Assembly (NCBI RefSeq): GCF_000949255.1
Contig: NZ_JXUW01000018.1
Coordinates: 1-57,754, forward strand
Source: Ferrimicrobium acidiphilum DSM 19497
GTDB lineage: Bacteria > Actinomycetota > Acidimicrobiia > Acidimicrobiales > Acidimicrobiaceae
Length of the DNA stretch: 57,754 nt
Direction of reading: 5' to 3'
The translations under genes and the position numbers were made by a program. Shown one piece after another: positions 1-56,768 of the stretch; within the stretch, counting starts at the first letter, position 1, and each line of letters begins with the position of its first letter. A model generated the notes under the pieces. The model did not search any database and was not told the DNA's origin. It saw nothing but the letters and a program-made list of their open reading frames with translations.

Positions 1-165
1 CCCCAGACCTAACTCCTCCGTGAAGTCTGGGACGTGCTCGGCCTCCAGAAACGCAGCAATACGGCTCCACATGCGCCGATAGTAACTGATCGTCCCCTCG
101 GTGTAGTGCAGCCGATGTAGCTCCTGCTCCAAGGCAGTGGTCAATTGGGAAAATGATTCAGACAT
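1..165 (-). CDS. Tyrosine recombinase/integrase, N-terminal fragment (runs off window)
   Basis: The minus strand reads from an ATG at 165 to the window edge without a stop, giving 55 residues (MSESFSQLTTALEQ, then LHYTEGTISYYRRMW). The segment resembles the SAM-like core-binding domain that opens phage-type integrases, with the typical pattern of a Tyr/Thr-rich helix followed by Tyr-Arg-Arg and an aromatic. A strong ribosome binding site, GAGGAGG, lies 8 bases upstream, which fixes the start. The catalytic domain is outside the window, so activity cannot be judged. It is transcribed away from the inverted repeat at 237-302, as expected for a recombinase beside its own element end. The family call rests on pattern only. 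Confidence 0.6.
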   Translation of the reverse strand, partial: MSESFSQLTTALEQELHRLHYTEGTISYYRRMWSRIAAFLEAEHVPDFTEELGLG

Positions 166-236
166 GAAGTGATTGCCTCCTCAATGGGTTAGCGGGATCG
201 CGAAGATCCTCCACTCCATTTTGACCCACAGCGGCG

Positions 237-302
237 TTATGCGAAGCTGATGTGCCCATGGATACACCTTGACATGGGAGTATGTCCGTCAACTTCGCAT
301 AA
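237..302. repeat. Nested inverted repeat, possible recombination site / element end
   Basis: TTATGCGAAG at 237-246 is matched by its exact reverse complement at 293-302. Inside it CCCATG at 255-260 is matched by CATGGG at 273-278, so the segment can fold as two nested stems. It lies between the divergent integrase start (165) and the point near 320 where reverse transcriptase sequence resumes. Arms of this kind are typical of att or terminal sites used by tyrosine recombinases. That role is inferred from position. Confidence 0.5.
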
Positions 303-319
303 TCGTCTACTTCACATAA

Positions 320-720
320 GGCGGCATCCTGTCACCACTACTTGCCAATATCGCACTCTCGGTACTCGACGAACACTTCGCCGAAGTCTGGGAGCGCGAT
401 ATGGGAACTCGTTCTCAAAGAGCTACGCGCCGGAAGCACAAGGAGGCCACATACCGACTCATTCGGTATGCGGATGACTTTGTTGTAATGGTGCATGGAA
501 CTAAGGAACATACCGAGGCCTTGCGAGCCGAGGTTGCGGTGGTACTCTCCCAGGTAGGTCTACGCCTATCACCGGAGAAGACGATGACCGTCCACATTGA
601 CGAGGGGTTTGACTTTCTCGGCTTTCGCATCCAGCGACAGACCAAGAGAGGATCAAACAAGGCATACGTCTATACCTGGCCGTCGAAGAAGTCGCTCTCC
701 TCGATCAAAGCCAAGGTTAA
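320..720 (+). pseudogene. ltrA: Group II intron reverse transcriptase/maturase, middle part, broken at both ends
   Basis: In frame from about 320 the translation begins GGILSPLLANIALSVLDEH and contains IRYADDFVVM, the reverse transcriptase box with the catalytic Asp pair, then DFLGFRIQR. The upstream half of the RT domain is missing: the frame starts abruptly next to the inverted repeat at 237-302. Downstream the gene is cut at 720 by an ISAzo13-type insertion and continues at 2014. It encoded the protein that splices and mobilises the surrounding group II intron. With the 5' part gone and an insertion in the maturase region it should be inactive. The other window end (57379) carries the N-terminal part of a related gene. 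Confidence 0.88.
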
Positions 721-2013
721 GGAGTCATAAACAAATAACATGGTCAGTCATGTCCTCGGTAAGATGACATAGTTCCATTCACCGTGGAAGTCGTCGCGAG
801 CAATTTGGATGGTAGCAAACTCCGCATCGGTGACCTTCCTGCCCGTTTGGTATTGACCAGAATCGATTTGAGCGCGAATCTTGAGTCCTTTGCTCGTTGT
901 GGTTGCGGCTATCAAGTTGACGATAACCTCGTGGCTCACCAATGGTTGACCGCGCCAGTTCAGGGTGATGAAAGAGAACATACGGTGCTCGATCTTGTTC
1001 CACTTGGAAGTGCCTGGTGGAAAGTGGCTCACGCGGATGGTCAGATCCAGCTCATCGCTAAGTCGTTGTAGCTCTAGCTTCCACAGACGTACTCGGGAGC
1101 CGTTACTTCCACCCCCGTCGGCCATGATCATGAGCTCCTTTGCGCCAGGATAGGTCGCCTGGCCCATGGCAAACCACCAGCGGCGGATCGTCTCGACCGC
1201 AAAGCTTGACGTATCGTGATCGGTACCTACGCTGACCCAGCCGGAGTTGGATGCAAGATCATAGACACCATATGGATTGGCTCTTCCCAGTTCCTGGTTC
1301 ACAAAGTCGTACACCTCGACAAGCTCTGGCTCTCCTTGTGGCCGCCACTCCTTGCCGTTGTTCTTATAGTGGCCTACCAACTCCTTCTTCTTTGTATCCA
1401 CCGAGATCACCGGTTGTCCACTCGACAGTGCGGCGTCTGTTTTGTGGTTAATGTATTCGAACTGGGCATTGCGGTCTGGATGACCTCCACCCTCGAGGGT
1501 CTTGCGGTTGCCCTGGAGGCTGTATCCAAGATCCTTAAGCAAAACTCCGACCGAGACATGAGAGATCTTATGACCCTGCTCTCCTAACTCGCGTGCCAGT
1601 TGCATCAAGCTCTTACAAGTCCAGCGCAGTGGTGACTGCGGATCACCCCTCGTGACAGGCTCCACCAACCGCTCCAGATCTCCTACCAGCAAGGGGTCGA
1701 TGTCCACCAGCTTCTTACGTCCCGCACCTGCTCGTCTGACGCGCCTGGTTCTATCGACGTCTACAGGTGGAGCTGAGTTCAGTTCCTTAATGCCGGCCAA
1801 TATAGACCCTCGGGCCACCCCAGTAGCTTCAGCAACACGCTTTACTCCGCCATGACCGAGTACTTTGGCCTCCGCTGCTGCGAACAGTCGCCTTTGACGT
1901 TCGTCGCAGAACCCTTCAAGAGCCTTGTAGCGAGCGGTGATCAACGCATCTGCATCCATCAGCCAAGTCTAGCTCGTAAGTACTAATAGTGCAAGTAATT
2001 GTTTTATGCCTCC
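721..2013 (-). mobile_element. ISAzo13-type insertion sequence, complete, inserted in the intron RT gene
   Basis: The element is 1293 bp. Its left end GGAGTCATAAAC and the reverse complement of its right end, GGAGGCATAAAAC, are imperfect terminal inverted repeats. The trinucleotide TAA occurs at 718-720 and 2014-2016, as a target duplication would. Removing the element and one TAA restores the RT reading frame exactly (...KAKVK joined to AITKQG...). One transposase gene fills the element on the minus strand. Confidence 0.85.
748..1959 (-). CDS. ISAzo13 family transposase
   Basis: This 403-residue protein is intact and should catalyse movement of the element at 721-2013. An N-terminal helix-turn-helix region (VKRVAEATGVARGSI, about residues 38-52) is followed by a DDE-type catalytic core: the first Asp in VISVDTKKKE, the second in IMADGGGSN, and the Glu in WNKIEHRMFSFI. 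The length and these motifs fit the ISAzo13 (Rhodopirellula-type) family. The ATG start lies about 54 bp inside the element end. No frameshift is visible, so unlike most transposases in this window it may be functional. Confidence 0.88.
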   Translation of the reverse strand: MDADALITARYKALEGFCDERQRRLFAAAEAKVLGHGGVKRVAEATGVARGSILAGIKELNSAPPVDVDRTRRVRRAGAGRKKLVDIDPLLVGDLERLVEPVTRGDPQSPLRWTCKSLMQLARELGEQGHKISHVSVGVLLKDLGYSLQGNRKTLEGGGHPDRNAQFEYINHKTDAALSSGQPVISVDTKKKELVGHYKNNGKEWRPQGEPELVEVYDFVNQELGRANPYGVYDLASNSGWVSVGTDHDTSSFAVETIRRWWFAMGQATYPGAKELMIMADGGGSNGSRVRLWKLELQRLSDELDLTIRVSHFPPGTSKWNKIEHRMFSFITLNWRGQPLVSHEVIVNLIAATTTSKGLKIRAQIDSGQYQTGRKVTDAEFATIQIARDDFHGEWNYVILPRT

Positions 2014-2359
2014 TAAGGCGATTACCAAACAGGGAACGAATAACCCGCTCTCTAGTCTCTTGCGCCAGATTAATGGTGTTCTGAGGGGCTGGACAAACTA
2101 CTTCCGACATGGCGTATCCAAAGATAGCTTCGCCTACCTACACCAGTACACCTGGCTAAGGGTAGTGCACTGGCTACGGCGGAAATATCGCCGTGCGAAC
2201 TGGGGGTGGTTGCGACGGCATTACCTGGCCAACGCCTGGATGCCCGAGCAAGACGGTGAAGTACTCTTTGACTGCAGGTCAGTCCAAGTGACCCGTTACC
2301 GCTATCGTGGTGCGGCAATCCCTTCACCGTGGGCGGGGATAGAGGAGAAGGCATCTTAG
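2014..2359 (+). pseudogene. ltrA: Group II intron maturase, C-terminal part (continues the RT fragment at 320-720)
   Basis: The frame resumes directly after the insertion with AITKQGTNNPLSSLLRQING, then VLRGWTNYFRHGVS, which is the group II intron maturase-specific (GIIM, domain X) signature. It ends at a TAG at 2357-2359, just before the intron domain V. The part is intact from the junction to the stop and is separated from its N-terminal portion only by the 1293-bp insertion. Maturase domain X binds the intron RNA to help splicing. Without the rest of the protein it has no expected function. Confidence 0.88.
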
Positions 2360-2381
2360 CCAGATGGCATGGGTTCGGGGA

Positions 2382-2478
2382 GAGCCGGATGCGGTGGAAG
2401 TCGCAAGTCCGGTTCGGAGGGCGGACCAGAGAAACCCACCAGCGGAAACGTTGGCAGGGCGCTCTGGTTCGACCCTAC
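2382..2478 (+). ncRNA. Group II intron 3' end: domain V and domain VI region
   Basis: Positions 2382-2415 form a 34-nt domain V: GAGCCGGAU pairs with the closing GUCCGGUUC, and an inner GCGGU/GUCGC stem is capped by a GGAA tetraloop of the GNRA type, 22 bases after the maturase stop. The AGC catalytic triad is present near the 5' base of the helix. Domain VI should follow at about 2424-2470. The intron probably ends at CCCUAC, position 2478, because the next codons (TTG GGA ACC GAG) continue an ISL3 transposase reading frame. Confidence 0.82.
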
Positions 2479-3012
2479 TTGGGAACCGAGGCCCTAGAGG
2501 AGGTACGAAAGGATCTTTGGCGGGAGATGAGAAAGCTTCCCTCTCCTACCTTTGCCCGTAAGTTCGCCGGGGCAAGGTGGGCACTGTTGAAGAATCCAGG
2601 AACCCTAACCAAGCGTCAAGGACTAGCCCTCTTAGCCATCAAACAACGAGGAGGAGCCCTATGGCAAGCTTATGAGATGAAGGAGTCCTTACGGGCGATC
2701 TTTGCTGGTGACCTCGAGATCGACGAGGTGAATGAGATGCTCGATCACTGGTGTCAGCGAGCTTCGCGTTCGAGACTACCGAGTTTCATCCGACTCTCAA
2801 AGACCATCCGAACTCATCGAGACGGGATACTTGCCTCCGCCATACTTGGGGTATCCAATGGAAGGGTCGAGGGACTCAACACCAAAGTCCGCTCCATCAT
2901 TGCCCGCTCGTATGGGTTTCACTCCGCCAAGGCTACCCTGGCCCTGGTGATGCTAGCTTGTGGACCGATTGACTTGAAGTTACCCTATGAAAGGGCGAGT
3001 TTATCCACATGA
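2479..3012 (+). pseudogene. ISL3 family transposase, C-terminal half (3' exon after the intron)
   Basis: Directly after the intron the frame reads LGTEALEEVRKDLWREMRKL and ends HSAKATLALVMLACG. It includes the C-terminal catalytic Glu region NGRVEGLNTKVRSI, which is diagnostic of ISL3 (DDE_Tnp_ISL3). The N-terminal half is not in this part of the window, but the complementary half of a matching gene is at 56028-56768, where the frame stops with DPFHVVK at an intron 5' end. The stop codon lies within the terminal inverted repeat. If the upstream intron could be spliced a full transposase would be made, but the RT is destroyed here. Confidence 0.85.
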
Positions 3013-3026
3013 ATGTCAATAGAGCC
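3002..3026 (+). repeat. ISL3 right terminal inverted repeat
   Basis: TATCCACATGAATGTCAATAG followed by AGCC at 3002-3026 is the exact reverse complement of 55884-55908 at the other end of the window. The two sites are opposite ends of two copies of one ISL3-type element in the same orientation. The bases just outside (GGATATAG here) cannot be compared with the other side of this copy, which is beyond the window. Confidence 0.8.
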
Positions 3027-3054
3027 GGATATAGGACGCCACCAAATCAATCTA

Positions 3055-4407
3055 TCAGGGAATGGTGGATCCCTCCAACTCAACGGTACGTCCAGTCTTG
3101 GACCACGATCTGACACCCTTGATCATCCTCACGAGAGCTGCCCAAGCGGAGATATAGCCGATATAATTCCACAACAGCATTAGATGACCCATCAGAATCG
3201 CCTTGGGCAAAGAAATCGACCTCGTTCGCCGATAATAAATAAGACCGATAAGAATATTTGGAAGGAAAGAAAACACGTACCAGAACAACAAGTATCCCAT
3301 CTCCCAAACAGGCGAACCCACGTGCAGATTCAATATGCTTTTGCCAGCACCAAAGGCAAGCTCATAAAACACCCACTGCTGAATGATTGACCACGGCAGC
3401 ACTATAACCCAGGGCACCAACAGATACGTGGTTACCTCAATAACTGCACTTTGGGAAACATTGGGTGACGACCAAACCTCTTTCATTCGGTTCATGCAAG
3501 TCATATGGCCTTGATACCAGCGAATACGCTGCCTAACCAGTGGTCGATAGCGCTCTACGGCCTGCTGATCCACGTATGCATCAACAGAGGTAGTGGCTTT
3601 CCAACCCTGACAGACAAGTCGCAGACCTATGTCTAAATCCTCCGTCAAGGAACTCGTCCAAGGTTCGCCTGGGAGACTCGCCAAGGCCGATAGCCGCGTA
3701 AATTGGCCATTGCCGCCCAAACTAACCGTCCCCGACCGGACGCGACTGAACTGCGACATTGCAGAAATCATCCAAAACTCAATATCCTGGAATCTCCCTA
3801 TAAGCTTCTCTCGATTGCGGATCCGAACGACATATTGCACTGATCCAACTTTGGGATCTTCGGCAAAACACTGAAGTGCCGGTCTCCCGGCGGCCGGACT
3901 CAGTCTTCCGTCTGCATCCATCACGCCTATAATGACGCTAGCGGGATCAAATCCCATATCGTAGATATACCGCCCAATGCATTCGTAACCAGCGTTCAGC
4001 GCAGCCCCTTTGCCTTTCCGAGCGTTTGGTGGTCGACGTCTCAAGATGGTAAGGCGACTTTCAGCCTGGGCGTCAATAGCGGCTTGCTTCGCACGTTTGC
4101 TAGTTAAATCCTCCGAGCCATCATCAATGACGAGAACCCTTACAAAAGGATCTAGAAGCAGATGCCGCACCGTCGCCTCGATAACGGCCTCCTCGTTCAA
4201 AGCCGGCACGAGGTAGAACAGATTTAACGCTGGCTTGACAGCCAAATCGTATTTCGGGGCACCCGGATCCAAAAGCTCTTGCTGGTTCAGCCTCCTTGCG
4301 CCGAGACGTTTGTGCGCCCGCATCCCGGCAACAATCGAGTATATAAAATAAGGCAAAGCCACAGCCAGGATAATCTCCGATGCCGTTATGAAGACGATGT
4401 TAATCAT
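3055..4407 (-). CDS. Processive family 2 glycosyltransferase (membrane polysaccharide synthase-like)
   Basis: This 450-residue protein has an N-terminal membrane segment (about 5-28) and a GT-A catalytic domain. The motifs seen are IDDGS (94-98), GKGAALNAG (132-140), DADGR (164-168, the DXD-type metal site), GGNGQF (231-236), TEDLD (255-259) and QRIRW (293-297). Three or four membrane helices close the protein (about 320-430). This D,D,D,QxxRW set is that of processive inverting enzymes such as cellulose, chitin or poly-GlcNAc synthases. The sugar cannot be told. Its start overlaps the exosortase stop by four bases, so the two are probably co-translated. Neighbouring genes for secreted and anchored proteins point to a cell-surface polymer. 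Confidence 0.85.
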   Translation of the reverse strand: MINIVFITASEIILAVALPYFIYSIVAGMRAHKRLGARRLNQQELLDPGAPKYDLAVKPALNLFYLVPALNEEAVIEATVRHLLLDPFVRVLVIDDGSEDLTSKRAKQAAIDAQAESRLTILRRRPPNARKGKGAALNAGYECIGRYIYDMGFDPASVIIGVMDADGRLSPAAGRPALQCFAEDPKVGSVQYVVRIRNREKLIGRFQDIEFWMISAMSQFSRVRSGTVSLGGNGQFTRLSALASLPGEPWTSSLTEDLDIGLRLVCQGWKATTSVDAYVDQQAVERYRPLVRQRIRWYQGHMTCMNRMKEVWSSPNVSQSAVIEVTTYLLVPWVIVLPWSIIQQWVFYELAFGAGKSILNLHVGSPVWEMGYLLFWYVFSFLPNILIGLIYYRRTRSISLPKAILMGHLMLLWNYIGYISAWAALVRMIKGVRSWSKTGRTVELEGSTIP

Positions 4408-5033
4408 CCAGCCTCCACCAGCTCAACCTGCTGGGTTTCACCTCGTTTACCCGTGCCGTGCAAGACAACCAGTGCGTACATAATGCCAGCTACAACAGTA
4501 CTGAAGATCGTGAGAAATGTCCCAAGGTAGGTATGAGCGATCGGAAAGCCCACCTTTACTCCATACTGAGCGACAAAGAGTCCAATCATCCCAAGACGAA
4601 GAATATTAAAGAGTAACAGAATAGCGCTCGCCAACACTGCAGCGGAAAGGACACGTCGCACTGGAATCGGTCTGACCATTGCAAGGAAGGCAGTGATCAA
4701 CAAGACCCCTATCACTAGGTAACCGACGCTGCACTCAGCTGTCACCGCAAAAATACCGACTACAATTCCTTGGCCACTAACCAGATAAATTAAACCACCC
4801 GAGCGGCTGTAAGCTGAATGACCCGTCAAAATCCCTATAAAATGCCCCCCAAGATTTGCCTCCATCTGCCGCCATGTGCCCTCATGGACCGCCAACACAA
4901 GCACTGCCGCGACAAGCACTAAACTAATCACATATCTCGATAACTTGCTCGTAACAGCTCGCGAAAGCACGTCAGGGAGCAGCCCCCCACGCGCACCCGA
5001 ATTCACGTCCCAGCCTCCACTCCTGCAGCACAT
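4404..5033 (-). CDS. Exosortase/archaeosortase family protein
   Basis: This 209-residue integral membrane protein has about six hydrophobic helices. Three isolated conserved positions match the exosortase transpeptidase triad: Cys101 (TAECSVGYL), Arg146 (FNILRLGM) and His167 (FPIAHTYLG), each at the edge of a membrane helix and in the family order. Exosortases cut C-terminal anchor signals of secreted proteins, in many bacteria together with exopolysaccharide synthesis. Here it is coupled by ATGA overlap to a processive glycosyltransferase, and two proteins with C-terminal hydrophobic-plus-Arg anchors lie 4 kb away. Function by homology only; the exact subfamily is not assignable by eye. The N-terminal 30 residues are polar and the start could be internal. 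Confidence 0.75.
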   Translation of the reverse strand: MCCRSGGWDVNSGARGGLLPDVLSRAVTSKLSRYVISLVLVAAVLVLAVHEGTWRQMEANLGGHFIGILTGHSAYSRSGGLIYLVSGQGIVVGIFAVTAECSVGYLVIGVLLITAFLAMVRPIPVRRVLSAAVLASAILLLFNILRLGMIGLFVAQYGVKVGFPIAHTYLGTFLTIFSTVVAGIMYALVVLHGTGKRGETQQVELVEAG

Positions 5034-5667
5034 GTATTAACGTTCATTTTAGCCGCACAAAATCACACATGTACATTTTCCCCTTCAGTTTTCGCCGAAA
5101 CACGAACGCAATCCCGATTCTCCATCATGGCTCATCCGCCGCAGTATGCGTTCCCGGGCAATAGCGGGACCTGGCACGATGCGATCCCTATGATCCAAAC
5201 AACTTATCCAACGCTTTTACACGCGAGCAGTCTCATGCTTTCTTGCATCGTTCCACACCGTGCTCTCTGCATCCTGGTTAACAGTCCACACTTCAGTTAA
5301 TGCCACGATCGTTTTATAGTGCTGACGGTCAACTACGGCAACAGCGCATCGCGTATTACCAACAAGAACGCCAACCGATAGGACCAGATGTATCCGCAGA
5401 TTTAAGTGTTTTTCGACTCGCCACTCGTCACTGTCTAGAACTTACACGTCCTTCTACACAACTATATAGCCTTTCCGAACGGTAATCGGATAGTAGGGGT
5501 CTAATTCGCGTCGGCATCTATCTGTTTGCACTCCCAAGAAAGTGAGGGCCGATAAATAGCAACAAAGGGGATTGATTGAGAACAGAGGAACACGGCTAAT
5601 GGTCCCGCTACCCAACATCTGGCGGCTGCTCAGGGTCCAGATTGGAAAGGGACTTCTTCAACACGCT
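5034..5667. other. Gene-poor stretch upstream of the exosortase operon
   Basis: The region should hold the promoter of the exosortase-glycosyltransferase pair, but I see no clear -35/-10 set. A 61-codon plus-strand frame (5300-5485) is open but has no recognisable motif or convincing ribosome binding site, so I do not call it. The last 130 bases run into the 980-bp repeat. Confidence 0.5.
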
Positions 5668-6647
5668 CCCAGTGCCCCCATCAGAGTTGGCCGTGAATCG
5701 GGGAATGTTCAATACTTGGCCTTGTTGAGCCCGTTGTACATCCACTCTCCTGGAGGAGGCAATGACAGTTGCAGAGCAGATGTCGAAGGTGAAACAAACG
5801 GTACTCCGTTCAGAGGAGACCAAGAAGAATACCGGTCGCAGCCCCAGCTCTATTGTCACGTGTTGAGCCAAGGGGGCAAGGAGCTCGTCTCTGGAAAGCA
5901 GTTGTTTGCCTCGTAATCCCACGCACAGTAGCGACTGCGCATAGCCATGACGAGCACGTTCGCGTGCTGCGCAGTCGACGCTCTTGGGAGTCGAGTTGTT
6001 TGACACCAGCTTCCCATGGTCATGGCCAAACGAAGTGCACCCATCGTTGAGGTAACGAGAACAAGATAGCCCTCGTGCGCTTGACACGCGTCGGGCTTCG
6101 CGAGAAGCGGTGATGGATGATCTAGATATCTCGCCTTCACGGTCTCACAATGGGTAAGGAGACTCTCCAATGTCCAAAGCCTTCTAGTTCCAAAGAAACA
6201 TAGCGATGAAAAGATTGCTTTGGGGTGATCAAACTCACCACCACGACCGATCCAGCTGATTCATCAACCAATACCAAGGCCGCCGAGGTCTTCAGTCTCT
6301 CCTCCGGCGGAAGTAGCTGGCGTACCTTTGGCCTCAACCCCCACGTGATTGGGGCCCTTGCGCATATCCAAAGAACCAGAGTTCACTCAAGAAGGTAAAA
6401 GACGTCACAGGTGTCTATCTGAATCCGCCAGATACAGCTATCGTCCTCAGTGTTGATGAGAAGACTAGAGGTACAAGCCCTGAACCGCACCCAACGCAAC
6501 CAGTTACGAGTATGGGCCTGACCTCACCTATGTCGGGCTACTTCATTACAAACGCAGGTGGCATCGGCAACCATCATGTGCGTCCTCGGTGTCGCCTCTT
6601 CGCAAGGTCATGCCAAGATTACGGTCGTCCTACTAGCGGTAGAGTTC
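5668..6647 (+). repeat. 980-bp direct repeat, copy 1
   Basis: The sequence from 5668 to 6647 recurs at 9962-10941 in the same orientation with no difference that I could find by eye; several long frames inside it translate identically in both copies. It carries the N-terminal and middle parts of a decayed IS630-type transposase gene. Here the IS630 remains continue past the repeat to about 7010, whereas copy 2 stops at 10941. The two copies enclose 3.3 kb with three genes for secreted or anchored proteins. Confidence 0.9.
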
Positions 6648-7010
6648 GTTATCAAGTGTGTACCAGTTGAACAGGGGTTCACATTCACAACGTCCACGAG
6701 AACTATGTGAACCTATAGAACCAAAATAGTCCGTACGTGATTCCGGACACACTCACTCTTTCAAACTTTGCATCACACCGACGTATCTATCGCAGATCTT
6801 TCAAGTGCAGCGTTGGTTCTTGAGTCCTTATCAAGTGCCTACAACACGGCCTCCACTACAGTGTGACCGAACTCATCAGAGCGATTGCCAAGTGGCCAAA
6901 ACTATGGCTTGAGAACCCCAAACCCCGTCAACGAGCAAGAGCACCGAGGAGATCTTCGTCTCCATGCACAATTACCTGGAATCTAATATTCTTCGGCCGA
7001 ATTCTGATGA
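6000..7010 (+). pseudogene. IS630 family transposase, decayed (copy 1, near full length)
   Basis: No single frame is open, but in-order fragments match IS630 landmarks. Near 6025 PIVEVTRTR resembles the start. Near 6220-6345 VIKLTTTTDPADSSTN and WRTFGLNPH match the linker before the core. Near 6370-6475 EPEFTQE and TGVYLNPPDTAIVLSVDEKT carry the first catalytic Asp. Near 6862-6990 VTELIRAIAKW with ENPKP and STEEIF match the C-terminal end. Frameshifts and stops separate the pieces. No inverted repeats could be set. It is a dead transposase gene that forms the core of the duplicated 980-bp segment. Confidence 0.65.
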
Positions 7011-7193
7011 GGACTACTGGGGCCATTCGAAAACAGTTCCGACCACATACGTACGCGTTTCACGGCAACGATAACCACCGAAGCACCATCATCCCACTAT
7101 TTCGAGCCATTTCAATCCCACTTCCTACAGAAACCTGGATTCGTGGCCGATATTTTCACTGTGCCATACTTTTCTACCCATTAACGAGGATTC

Positions 7194-8465
7194 ATGAAGC
7201 TAAACAAGACATCACCACATCGCTCAGCTCTACACAGCTATGCAGCAGCACTCAGTGTGCTCGGATTGACCGCCGGTGCTATAGCCGTTTCAACAAACAT
7301 CCAAGCACAAACGAGAACGAATCTTAACGCCGTTCAACCGACTACCGAAGGCCAACTCACGAGTCTGCACACGACGTCCCGAAGCACCACAAACGTAGCT
7401 GTGCATCATCCAGTCACGGGCACACCACTCGTTGAAGTAGCACCTGTTAAAGTTGCACCCGCACACGCCACCACAACAGCCATCCAACAGTCAACCTCTT
7501 CAACACACCCTGCGAACGGGGCTTCCCCAGCAGCCGCAATCAACACCGGTCAAGGTCTCTTCCTTCAAGTATCCTCTCTATCGCCTACTTACTCAGTTGC
7601 AGACGTGGCGCACTGGATGGCCCAGGTTTGTAGCACTGGGAAAAGCACCGCTGGTTCAACGCTGGTATTGCAAGACATCGTGAATGCCTCTGGGCAATTT
7701 AATACTCCTTACCTAAACGCCATCGTGCCGTACCTACCGGGGTACAGCACTTGCTTCTCGCAGGTCTTCATAGGAACCGCTGGGATCAACTACAACGGAC
7801 CGGGCACCCTCTATCAGCAAGGTGTGCAGAATACGAGCGTGCAAAGTGATTATCTCAACCAATCTGCTACTTTAGCGAAACAATTCCTCGCGCACTACCC
7901 GCGCGTGCGACCTAACTGGTACTTAACCCTTGAGGCTAATCTCAACTACCTTGATCAACCAGCAGTAGCAACTGCCTACTCGTCGATACTAACGAATCAG
8001 ATTCGTTACCTGCAAAGTCTCACTCCGAACGCCTCTTTCCTGTGGTCCCCCGGATTCTGGTACACCTACACTGGCTACTCATCCAATACCTACGGAATGG
8101 GCCTCCTTAATCAAGGTCTAGCCGGGCTATTCAGCAACCTAACAGCAGCCACACACCAACCCGTAATCGTAGATCTGCAGGATGAGATTGGAACGACAAA
8201 CTGTTGGGGCTCTGGCGCAATGACACCTTTAGACGCAGTCGACTGGGAGCACTACCTAACCACAATTCCCAATCATCCAGCCATTGAGATGAACACTACT
8301 CTCTTCCAGACATCATGCAGCACTGGTGGAGCTATGCCACTCTCGGCCAACCAAGTTAGCACGACAGAAAGCTATTATCAGTCGAACAATGTAAAACTCG
8401 GCCCAGCCTACGAGATGCGATATTGGCTCCAACAACACGGAATGTCACTAACCACACAGTCTTAG
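7194..8465 (+). CDS. Secreted DUF4434-like protein with probable glycosidase (TIM-barrel) fold
   Basis: This 423-residue protein begins with a signal peptide (hydrophobic run about 17-37, then IQAQT), followed by a Thr/Ser/Ala/Pro-rich linker to about residue 115. The remaining domain carries landmarks of DUF4434-type putative glycosyl hydrolases: NWYLTLEANLNYLDQP, FLWSPGFW near residue 281, and VIVDLQDEIG near 326-335, where the acidic pair would sit at the barrel's C-terminal face. It has four or so Cys and no anchor. It is the only plus-strand gene in this block, convergent with the LAFTG and surface-protein genes. A role in modifying the polymer made by the nearby synthase is plausible but only inferred. 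The family call is moderate. Confidence 0.6.
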   Translation: MKLNKTSPHRSALHSYAAALSVLGLTAGAIAVSTNIQAQTRTNLNAVQPTTEGQLTSLHTTSRSTTNVAVHHPVTGTPLVEVAPVKVAPAHATTTAIQQSTSSTHPANGASPAAAINTGQGLFLQVSSLSPTYSVADVAHWMAQVCSTGKSTAGSTLVLQDIVNASGQFNTPYLNAIVPYLPGYSTCFSQVFIGTAGINYNGPGTLYQQGVQNTSVQSDYLNQSATLAKQFLAHYPRVRPNWYLTLEANLNYLDQPAVATAYSSILTNQIRYLQSLTPNASFLWSPGFWYTYTGYSSNTYGMGLLNQGLAGLFSNLTAATHQPVIVDLQDEIGTTNCWGSGAMTPLDAVDWEHYLTTIPNHPAIEMNTTLFQTSCSTGGAMPLSANQVSTTESYYQSNNVKLGPAYEMRYWLQQHGMSLTTQS

Positions 8466-8619
8466 AGCAACTCAAGAGCGGTCGATTTGCCTTGATAGAC
8501 ACGATAACGGGAATACCAGTCACAACTACATCTCATCACAGCGGCCGGTAAATAATCCGGATAGGCCCCATGAACATGTAAAACAAACGCCATGGAAATC
8601 CGTGTGTAGGTAGCAGCAA

Positions 8620-8650
8620 GCGGAGCGCGATCACAACGATCGCACTCCGC
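8620..8650 (+). terminator. Hairpin between convergent genes (possible bidirectional terminator)
   Basis: GCGGAGCGCGATC (8620-8632), loop ACAAC, then GATCGCACTCCGC (8638-8650) gives a 13-bp stem with one mismatch. It lies between the convergent genes ending at 8465 (+) and 8711 (-). There is no long T-run, only CTCCATTATA on the plus side, so termination is uncertain. Confidence 0.45.
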
Positions 8651-8710
8651 CTCCATTATATAGAACAGTCAAACCCAAGAAGTCAACAGGCTCAAGCTCA
8701 GCATCGACCG

Positions 8711-8893
8711 CTAACTATGAACATCACTCTCAACTCGGTGTAGGCGCCGACCTCGCCACAGCAAAGCACCCGTAAGCACAAGGATCAGGCCTACAGCCAC
8801 AAACCATCCGATATCAAGACCTGTGAAGGCAAGCGCAGCTGCGCCGGTTGCCACACCACCAGCAAGTGTGCTCTTTGCAATGTCAGGGTACAC
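8711..8893 (-). CDS. 60-residue LAFTG cell-surface anchor miniprotein
   Basis: The protein has a short Gly/Ala-rich start, the pentapeptide LAFTG (residues 21-25), a hydrophobic helix (LDIGWFVAVGLILVLTG) and a basic tail WRGRRLHR. This is the layout of an actinobacterial sortase-type anchoring signal, here making up nearly the entire protein with no obvious mature domain. It starts 15 bases after the stop of the upstream surface-protein gene and is probably co-transcribed with it. Two readings are possible: a tiny envelope peptide, or the displaced C-terminal anchor of a larger protein. No sortase gene lies in the window; the exosortase at 4404-5033 is the only sorting-type enzyme seen. Confidence 0.6.
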   Translation of the reverse strand: MYPDIAKSTLAGGVATGAAALAFTGLDIGWFVAVGLILVLTGALLWRGRRLHRVESDVHS

Positions 8894-8908
8894 AAGGCCA
8901 CCCGCCCC

Positions 8909-9697
8909 TCACTCCTGAGCCGAGTTGCGAGCCAATTGACGGCGTCGAATCACGACGGCAGCGGTTGCGGCACTGGCAATACCAATCACACCGACGATCT
9001 CCAACCCATCGTTACCGAACAGTGGAGCAATAGGTGACCCAAGCGGTGTTGGTGGATCGATCCACGCATGACCTGTCACCGACTGATTGCTAGTAGCCCC
9101 AGTTGGTACGTTATACCACAATTTAATTTCCTTGCTACTGCTGGTACTCACTTCGCCTGTAAAGTAACCTCCAGTAACCGAAGCGTTACTTCCTACCGAA
9201 GAAGACGGAACTTGAATTGTAACAGACTTAGCATTGCTGGCTCCCTTACCGGTAAGAGTTATGGGCTTGACGTATATCTTTACCGCCGCCGACACCCCCT
9301 GTAAATGCAGCACCACATACCCGTTCACCGATGTCGACAGCGACTTACTGCCAGAGTAGGTTTGCCAAACCGTGAAGGTGATAAAGTCTCCCCCAGTCAC
9401 TTGTCCATTCGCATTAGTAGCACAAATAAGTACCCTATTGCCTAACGGATTATCATGATCCCCTGCCGTCGAGTGATCGCTAGCAACATAACCGTTATGA
9501 ACCACCGTCCCGCTTGAATTGGTGCATGATACAGTATTGCCTGTACTATGGCCTGTACTATGGCCTGTATCGCCGGCAAAGGCCGTCTGCGAAAATGCAA
9601 GGGTACCTCCGACTGCCCCAGCGACACCCAAGACACCAATCCCCGCGACCCGGCCAGCACTCCTGGCCCTACTCCTTAAATGTCCACGCATGCGCAC
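8909..9697 (-). CDS. Secreted surface protein with C-terminal membrane anchor
   Basis: This 262-residue protein has a long basic signal peptide (GVLGVAGAVGGTLAFSQTAFA, cut near residue 41). A His/Ser/Thr repeat (TGHSTGHSTG) follows, then a Ser/Thr/Gly-rich beta-type domain with two Cys (about 55-220). The C-terminus has NDGLEIVGVIGIASAATAAVV and the basic tail IRRRQLAR, the general form of a sorting or anchor signal. I do not recognise the domain. It lies on the same strand as the exosortase pair, which is downstream beyond the repeat, and just ahead of the LAFTG miniprotein. It is a candidate exosortase client, by context only. A good promoter precedes it at 9752-9781. Confidence 0.65.
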   Translation of the reverse strand: MRMRGHLRSRARSAGRVAGIGVLGVAGAVGGTLAFSQTAFAGDTGHSTGHSTGNTVSCTNSSGTVVHNGYVASDHSTAGDHDNPLGNRVLICATNANGQVTGGDFITFTVWQTYSGSKSLSTSVNGYVVLHLQGVSAAVKIYVKPITLTGKGASNAKSVTIQVPSSSVGSNASVTGGYFTGEVSTSSSKEIKLWYNVPTGATSNQSVTGHAWIDPPTPLGSPIAPLFGNDGLEIVGVIGIASAATAAVVIRRRQLARNSAQE

Positions 9698-9751
9698 TAG
9701 CCACTCCCATCACTCGCCACACTCGCGCCATTCATTAATGACACGATCCCG

Positions 9752-9781
9752 ATTATAACCATGTGATACTGACTGAAGTAA
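9752..9781 (-). promoter_or_regulatory. Candidate sigma-70-type promoter of the surface-protein genes
   Basis: On the minus strand TTACTT (9781-9776) and TATAAT (9757-9752) are spaced by 18 bases, about 55 bases upstream of the ATG at 9697. The -10 hexamer is a perfect consensus and the region is AT-rich compared with its neighbours. Confidence 0.5.
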
Positions 9782-9961
9782 CATTTTTGGGAATCTTTTC
9801 AATATATAGTTAAAGTTTTCTGCATTTCTAGCCGATACGCCACGCCGCGCAACATAATGACCACTCAAACGCATAAACGAGTAACGATTCGCCCATGACC
9901 ATTAAGCCACATCTCTTCTCAGCACAGGACATCTAAGGTGCTATTGATAGAAATCCAGATC

Positions 9962-10941
9962 CCCAGTGCCCCCATCAGAGTTGGCCGTGAATCGGGGAAT
10001 GTTCAATACTTGGCCTTGTTGAGCCCGTTGTACATCCACTCTCCTGGAGGAGGCAATGACAGTTGCAGAGCAGATGTCGAAGGTGAAACAAACGGTACTC
10101 CGTTCAGAGGAGACCAAGAAGAATACCGGTCGCAGCCCCAGCTCTATTGTCACGTGTTGAGCCAAGGGGGCAAGGAGCTCGTCTCTGGAAAGCAGTTGTT
10201 TGCCTCGTAATCCCACGCACAGTAGCGACTGCGCATAGCCATGACGAGCACGTTCGCGTGCTGCGCAGTCGACGCTCTTGGGAGTCGAGTTGTTTGACAC
10301 CAGCTTCCCATGGTCATGGCCAAACGAAGTGCACCCATCGTTGAGGTAACGAGAACAAGATAGCCCTCGTGCGCTTGACACGCGTCGGGCTTCGCGAGAA
10401 GCGGTGATGGATGATCTAGATATCTCGCCTTCACGGTCTCACAATGGGTAAGGAGACTCTCCAATGTCCAAAGCCTTCTAGTTCCAAAGAAACATAGCGA
10501 TGAAAAGATTGCTTTGGGGTGATCAAACTCACCACCACGACCGATCCAGCTGATTCATCAACCAATACCAAGGCCGCCGAGGTCTTCAGTCTCTCCTCCG
10601 GCGGAAGTAGCTGGCGTACCTTTGGCCTCAACCCCCACGTGATTGGGGCCCTTGCGCATATCCAAAGAACCAGAGTTCACTCAAGAAGGTAAAAGACGTC
10701 ACAGGTGTCTATCTGAATCCGCCAGATACAGCTATCGTCCTCAGTGTTGATGAGAAGACTAGAGGTACAAGCCCTGAACCGCACCCAACGCAACCAGTTA
10801 CGAGTATGGGCCTGACCTCACCTATGTCGGGCTACTTCATTACAAACGCAGGTGGCATCGGCAACCATCATGTGCGTCCTCGGTGTCGCCTCTTCGCAAG
10901 GTCATGCCAAGATTACGGTCGTCCTACTAGCGGTAGAGTTC
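9962..10941 (+). repeat. 980-bp direct repeat, copy 2
   Basis: This copy matches 5668-6647 throughout, in the same orientation. Left of it is unique sequence upstream of the surface-protein promoter. Right of it the match stops sharply at GGTAGAGTTC, and 57 bases later an IS3 element begins. The copy therefore holds only the first two thirds of the IS630 pseudogene. Recombination between the two copies would remove 4294 bp including the three secreted or anchored protein genes. Confidence 0.9.
10295..10941 (+). pseudogene. IS630 family transposase, decayed and truncated (copy 2)
   Basis: It carries the same in-order fragments as copy 1: WRTFGLNPH near 10610, EPEFTQE near 10671, and TGVYLNPPDTAIVLSVDEKT near 10703 with the first catalytic Asp. 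The gene is cut at 10941, so the region corresponding to the second Asp, the Glu and the C-terminus is missing. Because the same disabling changes are shared with copy 1, the duplication happened after the gene had decayed. Confidence 0.6.
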
Positions 10942-11028
10942 ATTTCAGTTCTTAGGGAACATCTGCAAACACTCAGATTCATAGCCTAGGCGACAATATG
11001 AACCGCCCCGGGTTTTACGGAGACCCGG

Positions 11029-11934
<906 letters not shown>

Positions 11935-11935
<1 letters not shown>

Positions 11936-12267
11936 TACTTGTTTCGTTTGGTTCCTGGTTGACCGTCCAGCTCGGTCGCGAAGAAAATCGATACCGCTCT
12001 CAGGATCTCGTTCGCTCGCTTTAACTCAGCGTTCTCGCGTTCGAGTTGGCGCACCCGTTCCTTGGCCTCACTCGTTACCCCCTCGCGGTCCCCTGTGTCG
12101 ATCTCGGTTTGGCGCACCCAGATCCGTAAGGTCTCTGGGGTCATGCCGAGCTTGTTGGCTACCGATTGAATCGCTGCCCACTGCGAAGGGTATTCCCCTC
12201 GGTGGTCTACAACCATACGAATAGCCCTATCCCTTACCTCTGGCGAGTAACGCTTCACCTGTGCCAT
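11935..12267 (-). CDS. IS3 OrfA (DNA-binding transposase subunit)
   Basis: This 110-residue protein starts 53 bases inside the right end of the element. It has a helix-turn-helix (about residues 10-60, with YPSQWAAIQSVANKLGM and ETLRIWVRQ) and a leucine-zipper-like stretch, RVRQLERENAELKRANEIL (about 72-90). This is the standard layout of OrfA, which binds the inverted repeats and in intact elements is joined to OrfB by frameshifting. The stop overlaps the first base of the orfB remains. It is intact but has no functional OrfB partner here. Confidence 0.85.
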
Positions 12268-12622
12268 AGTAACTCCATCCTCTCAAGAGTAGGAGTCTCC
12301 AAGAAACCCGGGGTTATTCAATACCCTTCCCTGGAGAGACAGATCCCGCGCTCAAATTCGCATCTCCAAGGTGGCGGAAAGGAAAACATGACCGAGAATC
12401 CTCCTGTGGCATACTGCCATCTCGACCATCTCTGTACATCGGCACACGATACCATCGAAATAGGTGCACATTTCGCTCATTTCGGACACCGAATCCGGAG
12501 TTTTCGGACAGTCTCGGACGGGGAGCCATCGGGTGCCACGCCTAACCCCTACCTCACCTCCTTTCTGGTGACTGTTCTTGGTCGGTGACCCATCGTTCTC
12601 ATCTTAGGTGTTGGACCTCTTC

Positions 12623-13367
12623 TCATCCCTGTACGTCGGTCGAGGTGACTACTTTGCGCATCGATTCTCCGTTCAGTTCGATGCGGTGAAGGTTCGTTGT
12701 AAGGCGGTCAAGAAGAGCGTCAGCGATCGTCGGGTCACCAATGCTTGCGTACCAGTTGGCAACTGGGAGTTGTGAGGTAAGGATCGTTGAGCGAAGTCCA
12801 TGACGATCCTCGATCACCTCTAAGGTGTCACTGGCAGCATCTGGGTTGACGGGTCGAATGAGAAAGTCATCAAGTATCAACACCTCCACCTTGGACCAGG
12901 CATTCATGAGACGTGCCAGTCTCGGAATCACCGCGGGCGATGGTGAGTTCTTCGAGCATTCGCGGATAGCGCAGATAGAGAGCCGAGTGCCCCTGACGGA
13001 TGGCCGCATGCCCAAGGGCACACGCCACATAGGTCTTACCCACTCCCGTGGGTCCAAGAACGGCTACTTGGTCGTGGTTGCGTACCCAGTTCGCGCTTGC
13101 CAAGGACAGCACCTGGGAACGGTCAAGACCCCGTGAGGCTCGAAAGTCAAGGGACTCTATGCTTGCCCCGGAGCGTAACTTGGCTGCCCGCAGGAGTCGT
13201 TCCATCCGACGCTCATCTCGGTAGCTGATCTCGGCAGTCACGAGATGGCTAAGACGTTCGTCAAATCCCAGGGTGAGAAACTCAGATGAACGCGACTGTT
13301 GTTCTAGAGCGTCGATCATTCCTTCGAGTCGGAGACGCCCTAAGGCTTCAATGGTATGATTGGTCAT
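12623..13367 (-). pseudogene. istB: IstB-like ATPase of IS21, single frameshift
   Basis: The first frame (13367 to about 12930) gives an AAA+ ATPase start and the Walker A motif VLGPTGVGKT. A one-base shift near 12925 moves the rest into another frame, with the Walker B motif VEVLILDDF and ending NGESMRK. In IS21 this protein is the transposition helper ATPase that acts with IstA. The two parts are complementary and complete, so the break may be recent. It follows istA by 21 bases. Confidence 0.8.
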
Positions 13368-13388
13368 GGTATTTCCTTTCTTGGTTGG

Positions 13389-14180
13389 TTACTGGTAGTA
13401 GTCGGAACCACGAAGGTTCTCATGGGTAGGTCCGGGTTGCGAGGGAGGTGTTTCACCTGGTGGTGGTGCACTATCGAGTCCGTTCTTTAGAATCGAGGCC
13501 ACACTGCGATAGGAGTAGGACCCAAGGGAAAGAGCGCGACTACAGGCTGCCTCGAGACGCTCTGGTGAGTACGTCTTTGCAAGACTCATGATGCCAAGAC
13601 AGCTCCGGTATCCCTGTTCTGGGTGTGGACGGCGCTCGAGTACTCCCTCAACCAGGGCTCCCGTCATTGGACCGGTGGTCTTGGCCCAGTTGATAATGCG
13701 TGAGGGGCTCCATTCGAGGTGAGCCCGGTGAGAGGCTGGCATGTGCGAGGGGTCCGTGGTAAAGCCGTAACGGACACTACTGCGTGGGTGGAGAGCCACT
13801 CTGACCCCCTTGGCAAAGATCTGCACACTCTTCTCTGATAGTCGTACCTCGACGTGGGTGCCTACCAGGCGGTAGGGTACCGAATAGTAGTGACGGTCAG
13901 CGCTCACGATGATGTGATAGTCAATGCTGACCTTGGCTCGCCTCCAGGTAGCAAACTCATAGGGAGTAGCTGGTAGCGGGCGCAGATGGTCACGTTCAAT
14001 CGTCTCAAACAACTCCTGACGTGAGGTACCAAGGGATTTGGTAACCCGGTGGTTAAGATCCCAGGTGAGCTTTACGATCTCTGCGTTGGCCTCTGCGAGA
14101 CTATGGAAGTGACGGTTGCGTAGCCGTGCGAGAATCCAGCGTTCAACCACAAGAACTGCCACCTCAACTTTGGGTTTATC
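13389..14180 (-). pseudogene. istA: IS21 IstA transposase, C-terminal part
   Basis: From the insertion junction the frame reads [17 protein letters not shown] and continues through the C-terminal DNA-binding and beta-barrel region, including [16 protein letters not shown]. It ends at 13389, 21 bases before istB. The N-terminal 254 codons are at 19429-20190. Joining the two at the shared GATAAA gives about 516 codons, a normal IstA length, so the gene was intact when the insert arrived. Confidence 0.85.
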
Positions 14181-14500
14181 GTCGACTATCAACTGCTCGA
14201 GGGAGCGGCGATCCGCAACGATTCCGTATCACCCACCCGTTCCACCCCAAGAAGGGTCAAGAGTACGAGTTAGTCGGCTTTGCCCACACCTGGGGGGAGT
14301 ACCGGGTGTTCTTTCGCCTGCCAGGTGACCTGCGTACGCAGTCAGTTCCCGCTGATTGGACCGATGTTGAAGAACCAGATGCCTTCGTCACCTGTTCTGC
14401 ACAACGGTCATTGTTCCGACCCAAAGATCTGCTCGAACTCGCTGATCTCTTAGAGGTCCTAGAACATCAGAGTGTAAGGACAACTACGCCGAATGTGTAA
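14126..14500 (+). CDS. DUF5372 family protein (first gene of the serine-recombinase module)
   Basis: The recognisable part runs from about 14216: [20 protein letters not shown], then [12 protein letters not shown], then [10 protein letters not shown] and [16 protein letters not shown]. This is the usual small DUF5372 protein found beside recombinases in mobile DNA; its function is unknown. Inside the inserted DNA (from 14181) no ATG, GTG or TTG precedes the conserved part in frame. The nearest in-frame ATG, 14126, lies in the flanking IS21 DNA. Either the target supplies the start, a non-standard start is used, or the 5' end of the gene was lost. Confidence 0.65.
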
Positions 14501-14614
14501 GGATGATTTCGCCAGTGAGTTCATAGATAGCTATCACGATCAGCTGACAACTGCAGAACTACCAGCTATCCTTGACTTTGGCCAAATCGTGCGGCATAAT
14601 AGTCCTTACAGGAC
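14473..14614 (+). promoter_or_regulatory. Promoter and repeated TGTAAGGA boxes upstream of the HTH-recombinase operon
   Basis: TTGACT (14572-14577) and CATAAT (14595-14600), spaced by 17 bases, form a near-consensus promoter just ahead of the HTH gene at 14636. TGTAAGGA occurs directly at 14473-14480 and 14496-14503, and inverted as GTCCTTACA at 14602-14610, where it is part of the palindrome GTCCT-TAC-AGGAC over the expected transcription start. This looks like an autoregulated operator, or binding sites of the module's own HTH protein or recombinase. Confidence 0.6.
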
Positions 14615-14635
14615 TACCCTTCAGGAGGAGGTATC

Positions 14636-15112
14636 ATGACACAAGAGCACCAAGACCCCAAAGAGGAGTCACTACGCAGAGCACGGGTGTTGAACCCAAG
14701 ACCCGAGGCGGTTCGTGCGCCCGAGTTTGTTGCTTCGGAATTCTTTGACGCTCGGGATCTTCTTCAGGTGAAGTACGAGATGTTAAGGAGGGTCACGCAC
14801 GAGGGAGCTACCATTAGCGAGGCAGCAAGCACCTTTGGCTTCTCGAGACCCTCGTTCTATGAGGCTCGGAGTGCCTATGAGGAGGGAGGGATCCCTGGAC
14901 TCTTGCCCAAGAAACCAGGACCCAGGCGAGCCCACAAGCTCTCCGAGGAGGTCATCGAGCGACTCATCTTAGCCAAAGAGGCCAATCCATCGCTCTCATC
15001 AGCGGACCTCGCTCAACTCGCTAGGGACGACTTCGGTCTTCGCGTACACCCACGAAGTGTTGAACGAGCGCTTGCGCGCTACCCAAAAGACCACCAGGAG
15101 CCGACCCTATGA
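14636..15112 (+). CDS. Helix-turn-helix protein of the serine-recombinase module
   Basis: This 158-residue protein follows a very strong ribosome binding site, AGGAGGAGG. It has a central helix-turn-helix of the type found in transposase and recombinase partners (GATISEAASTFGFSRPSFYEA, about residues 58-78) and a second helical part resembling a HTH_32/HTH_29 linker (VHPRSVERALARY, near the end). No catalytic motif is seen. Its stop overlaps the start of the next gene (ATGA). It may regulate the operon through the TGTAAGGA boxes or assist the recombinase; both are inferences. The same kind of protein commonly accompanies DUF5372 and a recombinase. Confidence 0.75.
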   Translation: MTQEHQDPKEESLRRARVLNPRPEAVRAPEFVASEFFDARDLLQVKYEMLRRVTHEGATISEAASTFGFSRPSFYEARSAYEEGGIPGLLPKKPGPRRAHKLSEEVIERLILAKEANPSLSSADLAQLARDDFGLRVHPRSVERALARYPKDHQEPTL

Positions 15113-15384
15113 GTACTCGATCTAAAGATGAGTTCGCATCTGCCTATGAGACATTGCGCGCGAGGGTGACCGAGGTGGGGTTCCCTGGGGCTCCGCTCGG
15201 CCTCAATCTGTTGCTTAACCAGGGTCTTAGTACCTGGATGCGGACGTTACCCGTAACTGGGTTGGAACTTCCCCCACTTGGGCCGGCGACCAACGGTGAT
15301 CGTGAGATGGGAGACAACCTTGAGCTCGTGCACGTACTAGCTGCGATGGCGCTTGCGAACACCTGCCACCTGGAGGCATCGTGA
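15109..15384 (+). CDS. Small conserved-type protein of the serine-recombinase module, function unknown
   Basis: This 91-residue protein overlaps both neighbours (ATGA with the HTH gene, GTGA with the recombinase), so the operon is tightly coupled. It is acidic and helical at the start (STRSKDEFASAYETLRARV), has a Gly/Pro/Leu-rich middle and ends with a helix (LELVHVLAAMALANTC). I recognise no domain. Its fixed position between the HTH and recombinase genes suggests a helper role. Confidence 0.65.
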   Translation: MSTRSKDEFASAYETLRARVTEVGFPGAPLGLNLLLNQGLSTWMRTLPVTGLELPPLGPATNGDREMGDNLELVHVLAAMALANTCHLEAS

Positions 15385-55640: not shown

Positions 55641-55883
55641 ACAGTTAACGGTCGATACGATCCTAATCGCAGCCACACGCGACCACTCCAAGGGAGCTAA
55701 AACAAGCACAGCGCACAATTAGCCCCATGGGACAGACCAGAGTTATCGTTGGACGCGTATTCCTCGGCAATCTTGCGAAGGCGCTGCCTACGACAGCCAT
55801 CAAGAGAGGGAATCCACCTGGAGAAGGATATTCGAGAGGAAGGGATCTGATCAAAACAAACGAGCGTCAAACGCTATATTTCC

Positions 55884-55908
55884 GGCTCTATTGACATTCA
55901 TGTGGATA
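55884..55908 (+). repeat. ISL3 left terminal inverted repeat
   Basis: GGCTCTATTGACATTCATGT followed by GGATA is the exact reverse complement of 3002-3026. It marks the start of an ISL3-type element that runs to the window edge. GGCTCT is the usual first hexamer of the family. Confidence 0.82.
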
Positions 55909-56027
55909 GATTTGGCCCGGATCTGATCCATAGCCCCAGTTCAGTGGGGGTATTTGGAGCTGAAATGGCCACATAAGAAACGCGCACGGTTTCTGAGCTC
56001 TAAATTTGGTGTTGGTTTGCCATCAAA

Positions 56028-56768
56028 ATGGAGTTCAGAACCGTGCGCGCTACCTCTCTAGTTAAGCAGATGCTTGCCCTTCGCAGTGTCACCGTCATCG
56101 AGGTTTTAGTTCGTCCACACGAACTGCTGATAAAACTTAGGCTTACCCGATCGCGGTTGGTATGCCCTAAGTGCTCCTATACGACCCGGTCCTGTTATGA
56201 CACGAGAACGCTCGACTCCCGATGGAGACACCTCGACATCGGGACTCACCAGACGTGGCTCTCGTGCCAACTGAGACGACTCCGGTGTCCAACCCACGGG
56301 GTGATCACTGAGGCAGTACCATTTGCCCGACCAGTTGGGGAGTCGCGGTTTACGAGGGACTTCGAGCACTTGGTAGCTTGGGCATGCGCCAAGATGGATA
56401 AGACCACGGTGACAAAACTGCTCAGAGTCGCCTGGCGTACGGTAGGAACGATCTGTGAACGAGTCGTCACGCCAAGAGCTCGATCCCAACCGTCTTGATG
56501 ACCTCTTCATTCTCGGAGTCGACGAGATCAGTTATCGCAAGCACCACAACTACTTAACGCTTGTCACCAATCACGAGACGGGCAAGATCGTCTATGGGGC
56601 AGAGGGGAAAGTGCCAAGAGCCTAGATGAATTCTTCGATGACCTGGGTGAAGAACGGATTGCCAAGATCAAGGCAGCCACAATGGATCTCGGTCCAGCCT
56701 TTGCCAAGGCCTTCCGCGAGAAGGCACCTAACGCCCAAATCTGTCTCGATCCATTTCATGTGGTTAAG
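56028..56768 (+). pseudogene. ISL3 family transposase, N-terminal half, two frameshifts, cut by a group II intron
   Basis: The start MEFRTVRATSLVKQML is followed by the zinc-binding and HTH region of ISL3 (LVCPKCSYTTRSCYDTR, LRRLRCPTHGV and DKTTVTKLLRVAWRTVG). An extra base near 56472 breaks the frame at VVTPRARSQPS. The next part, DDLFILGVDEISYRKHHNYL, carries the first catalytic Asp in another frame, and a missing A near 56611 returns to a third stretch, SLDEFFDDLGEERIAKIKAA, ending LDPFHVVK at 56768. There the group II intron begins. The C-terminal half is beyond the window, but a matching half lies at 2479-3012. Confidence 0.82.

Follow-up and report, generated by a model that had tools for sequence, protein, structure and literature searches.

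To what does a bacterial exosortase attach the protein that it processes? To our knowledge, the acceptor is not settled. We considered this question for a stretch of DNA from Ferrimicrobium acidiphilum DSM 19497 (genome G000; 3.09 Mb in 68 contigs), here called the window, which is one contig (C18) taken at its full length of 57,754 nucleotides (positions 1–57754). An earlier note on this DNA had drawn attention to an exosortase-like gene joined to that of a glycosyltransferase (GT). On the evidence set out below, the window likely carries a one-client exosortase system coupled to the synthesis of a surface HexNAc polymer, as a lineage-specific branch allied to the actinobacterial XrtP/CoaP systems. 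Its genes probably serve to trim and anchor a single secreted surface protein and to make a surface sugar polymer.

Samples and searches

With the exosortase as a single-protein query against the genome contigs, no match was found, and a scan with an alignment of the GT was used in its place. The best 80 of the 139 places confirmed by that scan were combined with the window and a locus of genome G056 (L011) into a GT-selected sample of 82 loci, part of whose contigs are short. An exosortase is present in 30 of these 82 loci (“paired”) and absent from 52 (“unpaired”), and counts of paired and unpaired loci refer throughout to this sample (best 80 of 139, plus two). Genome-level searches covered 60 genomes, G000 included. 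The scans with NCBIfam exosortase models took in the window, L005/L011, L010/L014, L013 (a contig of genome G001), L015–L023, L025–L027, L057, L075 and L081. The clustering of neighbouring genes contained antisense ORFs; the sole group taken from it, a large membrane protein, was rechecked.

The exosortase and its coupled glycosyltransferase

4404–5033, minus strand: exosortase-family membrane protein of 209 aa
3055–4407, minus strand: processive-type GT2 synthase of 450 aa

The exosortase/archaeosortase signature TIGR04178 matches the first of these proteins at 30.9 bits (cut-off 23), so that the profile search placed it in the exosortase family and not in an unrelated membrane family, and the Cys101-Arg146-His167 triad reported in the earlier note is present at the length, coordinates and strand given there. 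C101 lies within ECSVG, R146 within N143-x-x-R146 and H167 within H167-x-x-x-G171. E58, R146, H167 and G171 are found in every one of 29 aligned homologues, C101 and N143 each in at least 90% of them. The catalytic Cys has been lost (VTGPVSASW) from an exosortase relative of Promicromonospora panici (L024, 11585–12172) that is encoded downstream of its GT. An AlphaFold2 model built from the 29 rows (mean pLDDT 87.7, pTM 0.79) has about five long helices. It had no fold match in the PDB at E ≤ 0.001, and the exosortase profile matched no PDB sequence at E ≤ 1, that is, no solved relative; structure therefore neither confirms nor refutes the family assignment. The matches that the fold search returned, rotor rings and GPCR helix bundles, were taken as uninformative. 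Judged by its sequence, the protein is a member of the exosortase/archaeosortase superfamily, with a predicted cleavage or transfer activity.

The exosortase stop overlaps the GT start as ATGA, and a GGAGG precedes this start. The highest-scoring model for the GT was NF053846 (XrtP-associated GT), at 274.4 bits and below its cut-off of 520; the second-best NCBIfam model was PgaC/IcaA, at 92.7 bits and below 422.3, and PF13641 scored 72.8 bits against 27. All elements of the processive GT2 set (D, DxD, ED, QxxRW) were found, as D96, DADG, LTED and QRIRW. The overlap, the motif set and the extent and strand of the GT are thus as previously described. QxxRW is the processive signature; since it occurs in 30/30 paired and 52/52 unpaired GTs (best 80 of 139, plus two), it marks the GT family and not the pairing. 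A 4-bp exosortase/GT overlap was found in 6 of the 30 paired loci, possibly an undercount given that the most-upstream ORF starts were used (same sample). In L026 (4440–6436), the order is reversed, GT then exosortase, and a 4-bp overlap is retained.

One client and its C-terminal signal

8909–9697, minus strand: secreted client of 262 aa, with an N-terminal hydrophobic (Sec-type) signal and a C-terminal anchor
8912–9055, minus strand: C-terminal signal of the client (SPIAPLFG, hydrophobic helix, RRR), recognised by identity to G001 and by profile match

Two proteins nearby had been put forward as candidate clients. When C-terminal features were applied as a heuristic to ORFs starting within positions 1–15,000 of the window, one fitted, that at 8909–9697. 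Besides G000, a full-length relative was found among the 60 genomes in G001 only (E 4.2e-53), where it shares a contig with the exosortase and GT; a match in G033 was N-terminal only and weak (E 6.7e-4). Between the window and G001 clients, 30 of 47 aligned residues are identical in the signal region and 64 of 151 in the mature body. A C-terminal profile made from 11 client C-termini gave one strong match in G000, the client itself (3.6e-16), followed by one at 0.02. Because the window and G001 sequences were part of the profile, the strength of the client's own match arises by construction, and the informative part of the search is the absence of further strong matches. In G001, a second client-like C-terminal signal was seen (C18 of that genome, 1247–1360; 254-aa frame, E 1.6e-4). 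The same profile matched G004, which has no exosortase match, at E 3.2e-4, and therefore matches at the level of 1.6e-4 to 3.2e-4 are not decisive.

How widely is the signal shared? The motif SPIAPLFG is common to the window and G001 and resembles GVPQAPLFG of L015, whereas the L014 client has LIPALGG and matches the window client weakly, over 25 residues (E 0.004). The L015 client (7752–8663), beside an exosortase of the window clade, is ice-binding-protein-like, at 107.8 bits and below the cut-off of 400. A broader profile trained on 20 clients from paired loci matched 25/30 paired and 0/52 unpaired loci at E ≤ 0.01 (best 80 of 139, plus two), the 20 clients being the training set itself. 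In a held-out test over 12 groups, the profile picked up 8 at E < 0.05, and no unpaired locus scored better than 0.22 in any run. It missed the window/L013, L015 and L020 groups and reached L019 at 0.32; inside recovered groups, L011 was found and L016 missed, and in the Pseudonocardiaceae group 4 of 9 loci were found. A composition-only control marked 11/30 paired loci (in L089, the exosortase itself) and 4/52 unpaired loci (best 80 of 139, plus two), counts that are low because the nested-ORF filter dropped many clients found earlier. This partial recovery, together with a window motif that G001 shares and L015 resembles, indicates a lineage-specific signal. The conserved C-terminal signal expected by the earlier note thus exists in part: G001 has it too and L015 has one like it, but a profile of other clients misses it.

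Glycan genes and mobile elements

7194–8465, plus strand: secreted, possibly TIM-barrel protein, candidate glycoside hydrolase
5668–6650, unstranded: 983-bp insertion sequence copy, IS630-like by our own reading, between the exosortase and hydrolase-like genes
9962–10944, unstranded: second 983-bp insertion sequence copy, beyond the client
2329–3012, plus strand: ISL3-type transposase remnant (PF01610, 114.1 against 23; NF049919, 52.4 against 30)
Contig C47 (L097), 1045–1956: sortase (PF04203, 99.4 against 26.6)

The protein at 7194–8465, with relatives in G001, G020 and G027, matched nothing in Pfam at E ≤ 1; in NCBIfam its one match was insignificant (E 0.026). A two-sequence model was barrel-like but poor (pLDDT 49.5); its top fold match was a GH5 mannosidase (Z 12.2, rmsd 4.0, 236 aligned), followed by an aldolase (11.9). 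E247 and E331 are retained in all four aligned sequences. On this low-confidence model, the protein is possibly a glycoside hydrolase.

The sole wecB of G000 (UDP-GlcNAc 2-epimerase; TIGR00236, 418.8 bits against 210.15) lies on contig C47, which also carries the sortase and a large membrane protein of 767 aa. The membrane protein had no Pfam or NCBIfam match, and “ArnT-like” is a label that we gave it by eye; its relatives occur in L014, L016, L017 and L020, i.e., 4/30 paired and 0/52 unpaired loci (best 80 of 139, plus two). The sortase scored 146.4 bits on the class E model, below the cut-off of 160, and is class E-like. Sortases also adjoin the hydrolase-like protein in G020 and G027 (L137, 3853–4734; L138, 1917–2837); their identity to the C47 sortase is 42–43%. 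The two enzymes, sortase and exosortase, may work for the same surface layer. In G001, wecB adjoins the GT, and the gene order in G020 is wecB, client, exosortase, GT, membrane protein. The earlier view that there is no wider exopolysaccharide operon thus holds for the window itself; it does not extend to C47, with wecB and the membrane protein, or to close relatives, in which wecB (G001, G020) and the membrane protein (G020) stand beside the pair.

Across the GT-selected sample (best 80 of 139, plus two), wecB was found in 22/30 paired and 49/52 unpaired loci, 71/82 in total; being frequent with or without an exosortase, it tracks the GT and not the exosortase. A wecB search of 13 genomes gave four matches, of which that in G002 (no exosortase) is cut by a contig end. 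The 49 unpaired GT2 + wecB pairs (of 52; best 80 of 139, plus two) lie within L028–L092, many in Streptomyces and Actinomadura, and it is possible that they make an unnamed surface polymer.

How might wecB have come to lie apart from the GT? The two 983-bp copies are 99.9% identical and flank the hydrolase-like gene and the client, and the ISL3 remnant lies at the 3′ side of the window GT, the position held by wecB in G001. Window positions 2493–3028 are 95% identical to C47 13482–14017, and the insertion sequences common to C47 and the window are 95–97% identical. These shared elements suggest that the island was probably broken by mobile elements, and a single island broken by insertion sequences is the simplest reading. 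In addition, a 95%-identical repeat occurs near the window end (55881–57022) and at both C47 ends (1–964 and 14021–15175), and is possibly the cause of the assembly break.

Elsewhere in the window (401–2478), a group II intron reverse transcriptase is apparently split by an ISAzo13 transposase (748–1959), with a YADD fragment at 401–730 and a maturase-like end at 2006–2359 (both by our own reading) and RF00029 at 2380–2478. An Rfam scan of the window found no regulatory RNA by the genes, the group II intron alone being over threshold, with two sub-threshold matches; a scan of the other loci likewise found none, with two sub-threshold matches. A stretch of about 200 bp found upstream of both wecB and the hydrolase-like gene had been considered as a regulator, a reading that we dropped; we read it as the end of an IS630-type transposase. 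In Pfam, its window ORF matched no family, and its C47 ORF (7368–7775) has an HTH_32 domain.

Distribution, phylogeny and selection

Within the seven genomes of the genus, the exosortase, GT (E ≤ 1e-30) and client were all found in G000 and G001, and none of the three in the other five. Four of the 60 genomes have the exosortase and four the hydrolase-like protein; the membrane protein occurs in three, and the GT (E ≤ 1e-30) in ten. All four proteins are present in G000, G001 and G020; G027 (76% complete) has the hydrolase-like protein without an exosortase, G056 has the exosortase and GT only, and the GT without an exosortase was seen in five genomes of genus g4 and in G054. In the 396 genomes of the phylum, the XrtS model reached E ≤ 1e-8 in four, none over the cut-off. 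Exosortase-side searches over 396 genomes each, one of which scored eight candidates per genome and may miss exosortases, led to four other genomes. A GT2 stands beside the exosortase in G435, G245 and G286 (E ≤ 5e-32); in G376 both matches were weak (exosortase 2e-8, GT 4e-12). Among these four, a client-profile match (E ≤ 0.1) was present in G435 only, and wecB in the stretch in G286 only.

On the GT tree, the pairing label requires 6 changes, against a shuffled mean of 24.6–24.8. The window groups in one clade with L013, L014 and L015 (SH-aLRT 100) within a 19-row set, 16 of whose rows are paired; the tree was made by a quick method and has several long branches and a weak root. The same four loci form a clade on the exosortase tree (99/96), with the XrtP member L081 in a separate clade of nine (100/99).

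In a comparison of five genes with G001 (wecB being that of C47), third-position differences were the most frequent in all. By codon position 1/2/3, the differences were 0.18/0.12/0.60 for the GT, 0.33/0.30/0.67 for the exosortase and 0.43/0.36/0.65 for the client; dS was computable for the client only (dN/dS 0.55/2.85). This bias points to constraint on the genes, as measured over the time since G001 split off and not over the time since the insertions.

Relation to described exosortase systems

Is such a system new? The unit of polymer synthesis and sorting suggested earlier is supported, with 8909–9697 as its client and with the co-occurrence in G000 and G001, against none in the other five genomes of the genus. 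The suggestion that it is undescribed is not supported, because NCBIfam has models for XrtP, the XrtP-associated GT and CoaP that match related loci, and a Firmicutes XrtG system has been published (PMC12854382); this kind of exosortase, GT and client was already known. L081 scored 265.3 for XrtP (cut-off 200), 65 for CoaP (35) and 98.1 for choice-of-anchor P (27), and the GTs of L057, L089 and L011 pass NF053846. The L018 exosortase, also GT-paired, is XrtR (223.6 against 150).

The XrtP system (NF012139, NF053845, NF053846), like the window, combines an exosortase with a GT2 from the same family and has, close by, a client that ends in a helix and Arg tail; L081 and L089 also have wecB in the locus. 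In contrast to XrtP, the window exosortase scores 49.7 bits on NF012139, below 200, and its GT falls short of the NF053846 cut-off (274.4 against 520). The client has no CoaP (NF053845) or choice-of-anchor P match at E ≤ 1, and the window lies in a separate exosortase-tree clade and, on the GT tree, outside the set to which the XrtP loci belong. As outlined in the available text of PMC12854382, the XrtG/Firmicu-CTERM system of Lactiplantibacillus plantarum combines a single CTERM protein with one exosortase and two GTs, and is likewise a minimal Gram-positive system; the window differs in its single GT and its phylum, and its exosortase has no TIGR03110 match at E ≤ 1. The accessible part of PMC1569441 describes EpsH (XrtA) of the PEP-CTERM system as having Cys, NxxR and HxxxG motifs, a tie to exopolysaccharide genes and a tripartite C-terminal signal, all as in the window, and lists Actinomycetes among the lineages with no PEP-CTERM example in 2006. 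However, the window has no PEP motif and one client was found. Its exosortase, of 209 aa and about five long helices in the model, has C-x-x-G, against C-x-G and at least eight helices in EpsH (same source), and scores 22.2 bits on PF09721, below the gathering score of 25.7. The top-scoring subfamilies were XrtS (NF033767, 58.9 bits) and XrtR (NF012138, 50.6 bits), below cut-offs of 145 and 150, respectively. Forming one clade and lying below every named exosortase cut-off tested, the window branch looks like a distinct, unstudied variant. Literature searches, with most subscription papers outside their reach, found no paper on an actinobacterial exosortase–GT pair.

Proposed mechanism and alternatives

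How might these proteins act together? The client would be exported by Sec and retained through its C-terminal helix and RRR tail. The exosortase, with C101 as nucleophile and R146 and H167 assisting, would cleave it at or near SPIAPLFG, and the new C-terminus would be transferred to an acceptor at the membrane's outer face. The coupled GT2 would polymerise and extrude a HexNAc polymer, for which the donor is probably UDP-ManNAc from WecB, as suggested by wecB alone; the 7194–8465 protein may trim the polymer. In G000, insertion sequences would have left the island in two or more separate places.

A serious possibility, which we place somewhat short of an even chance, is that a membrane lipid or peptidoglycan receives the client, the GT/WecB polymer being separate and merely co-regulated. 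In Haloferax, the archaeosortase ArtA has been proposed to link its substrates to archaetidylethanolamine (PMC7157517, in the text available), and methanolan production is described as unaffected by disruption of EpsH (PMC1569441, in the part available). The GT and wecB occur without an exosortase in 49/52 unpaired loci (best 80 of 139, plus two). Against this stand the clustering of exosortase-paired GTs on the tree and the 4-bp overlap that joins both genes in 6/30 loci of the same sample, with L026 reversed.

We think it rather unlikely that the GT makes no polymer and instead attaches a single sugar, or a small number of them, to the client or a lipid carrier. No further gene for polymer export could be made out next to the pair, and the membrane protein on C47, ArnT-like by eye and with relatives in L014, L016, L017 and L020, would suit such a scheme; the QxxRW motif in 30/30 paired GTs (best 80 of 139, plus two) and the rank of PgaC/IcaA as second-best NCBIfam model (92.7 bits, below 422.3) argue against it. 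Improbable, too, is a decaying remnant disabled by insertions: insertion sequence copies lie on both sides of the hydrolase-like gene and client, and an ISL3 remnant occupies the position of wecB in G001, with wecB on C47, but the compared genes are open, third-position differences dominate in all five, and the client dN/dS is 0.55/2.85, a value that covers the time since the G001 split and not since the insertions.

Returning to a one-client exosortase system coupled to HexNAc polymer synthesis, we consider it unlikely, as a specific form of this reading, that the exosortase acceptor is the nascent polymer of the coupled GT, so that one protein would be fixed C-terminally to a ManNAc-containing glycan. 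Because the system, with a single enzyme, a single recognised client and a single coupled synthase, is of a size that could be reconstituted, the acceptor question is directly testable here, and the presence of wecB beside this GT family in 71/82 loci (best 80 of 139, plus two) points to a sugar donor worth testing. If transfer to the polymer is true, the locus would represent a protein-to-polysaccharide ligase module in a Gram-positive phylum, in which lineage-specific signal motifs would track lineage-specific enzymes.
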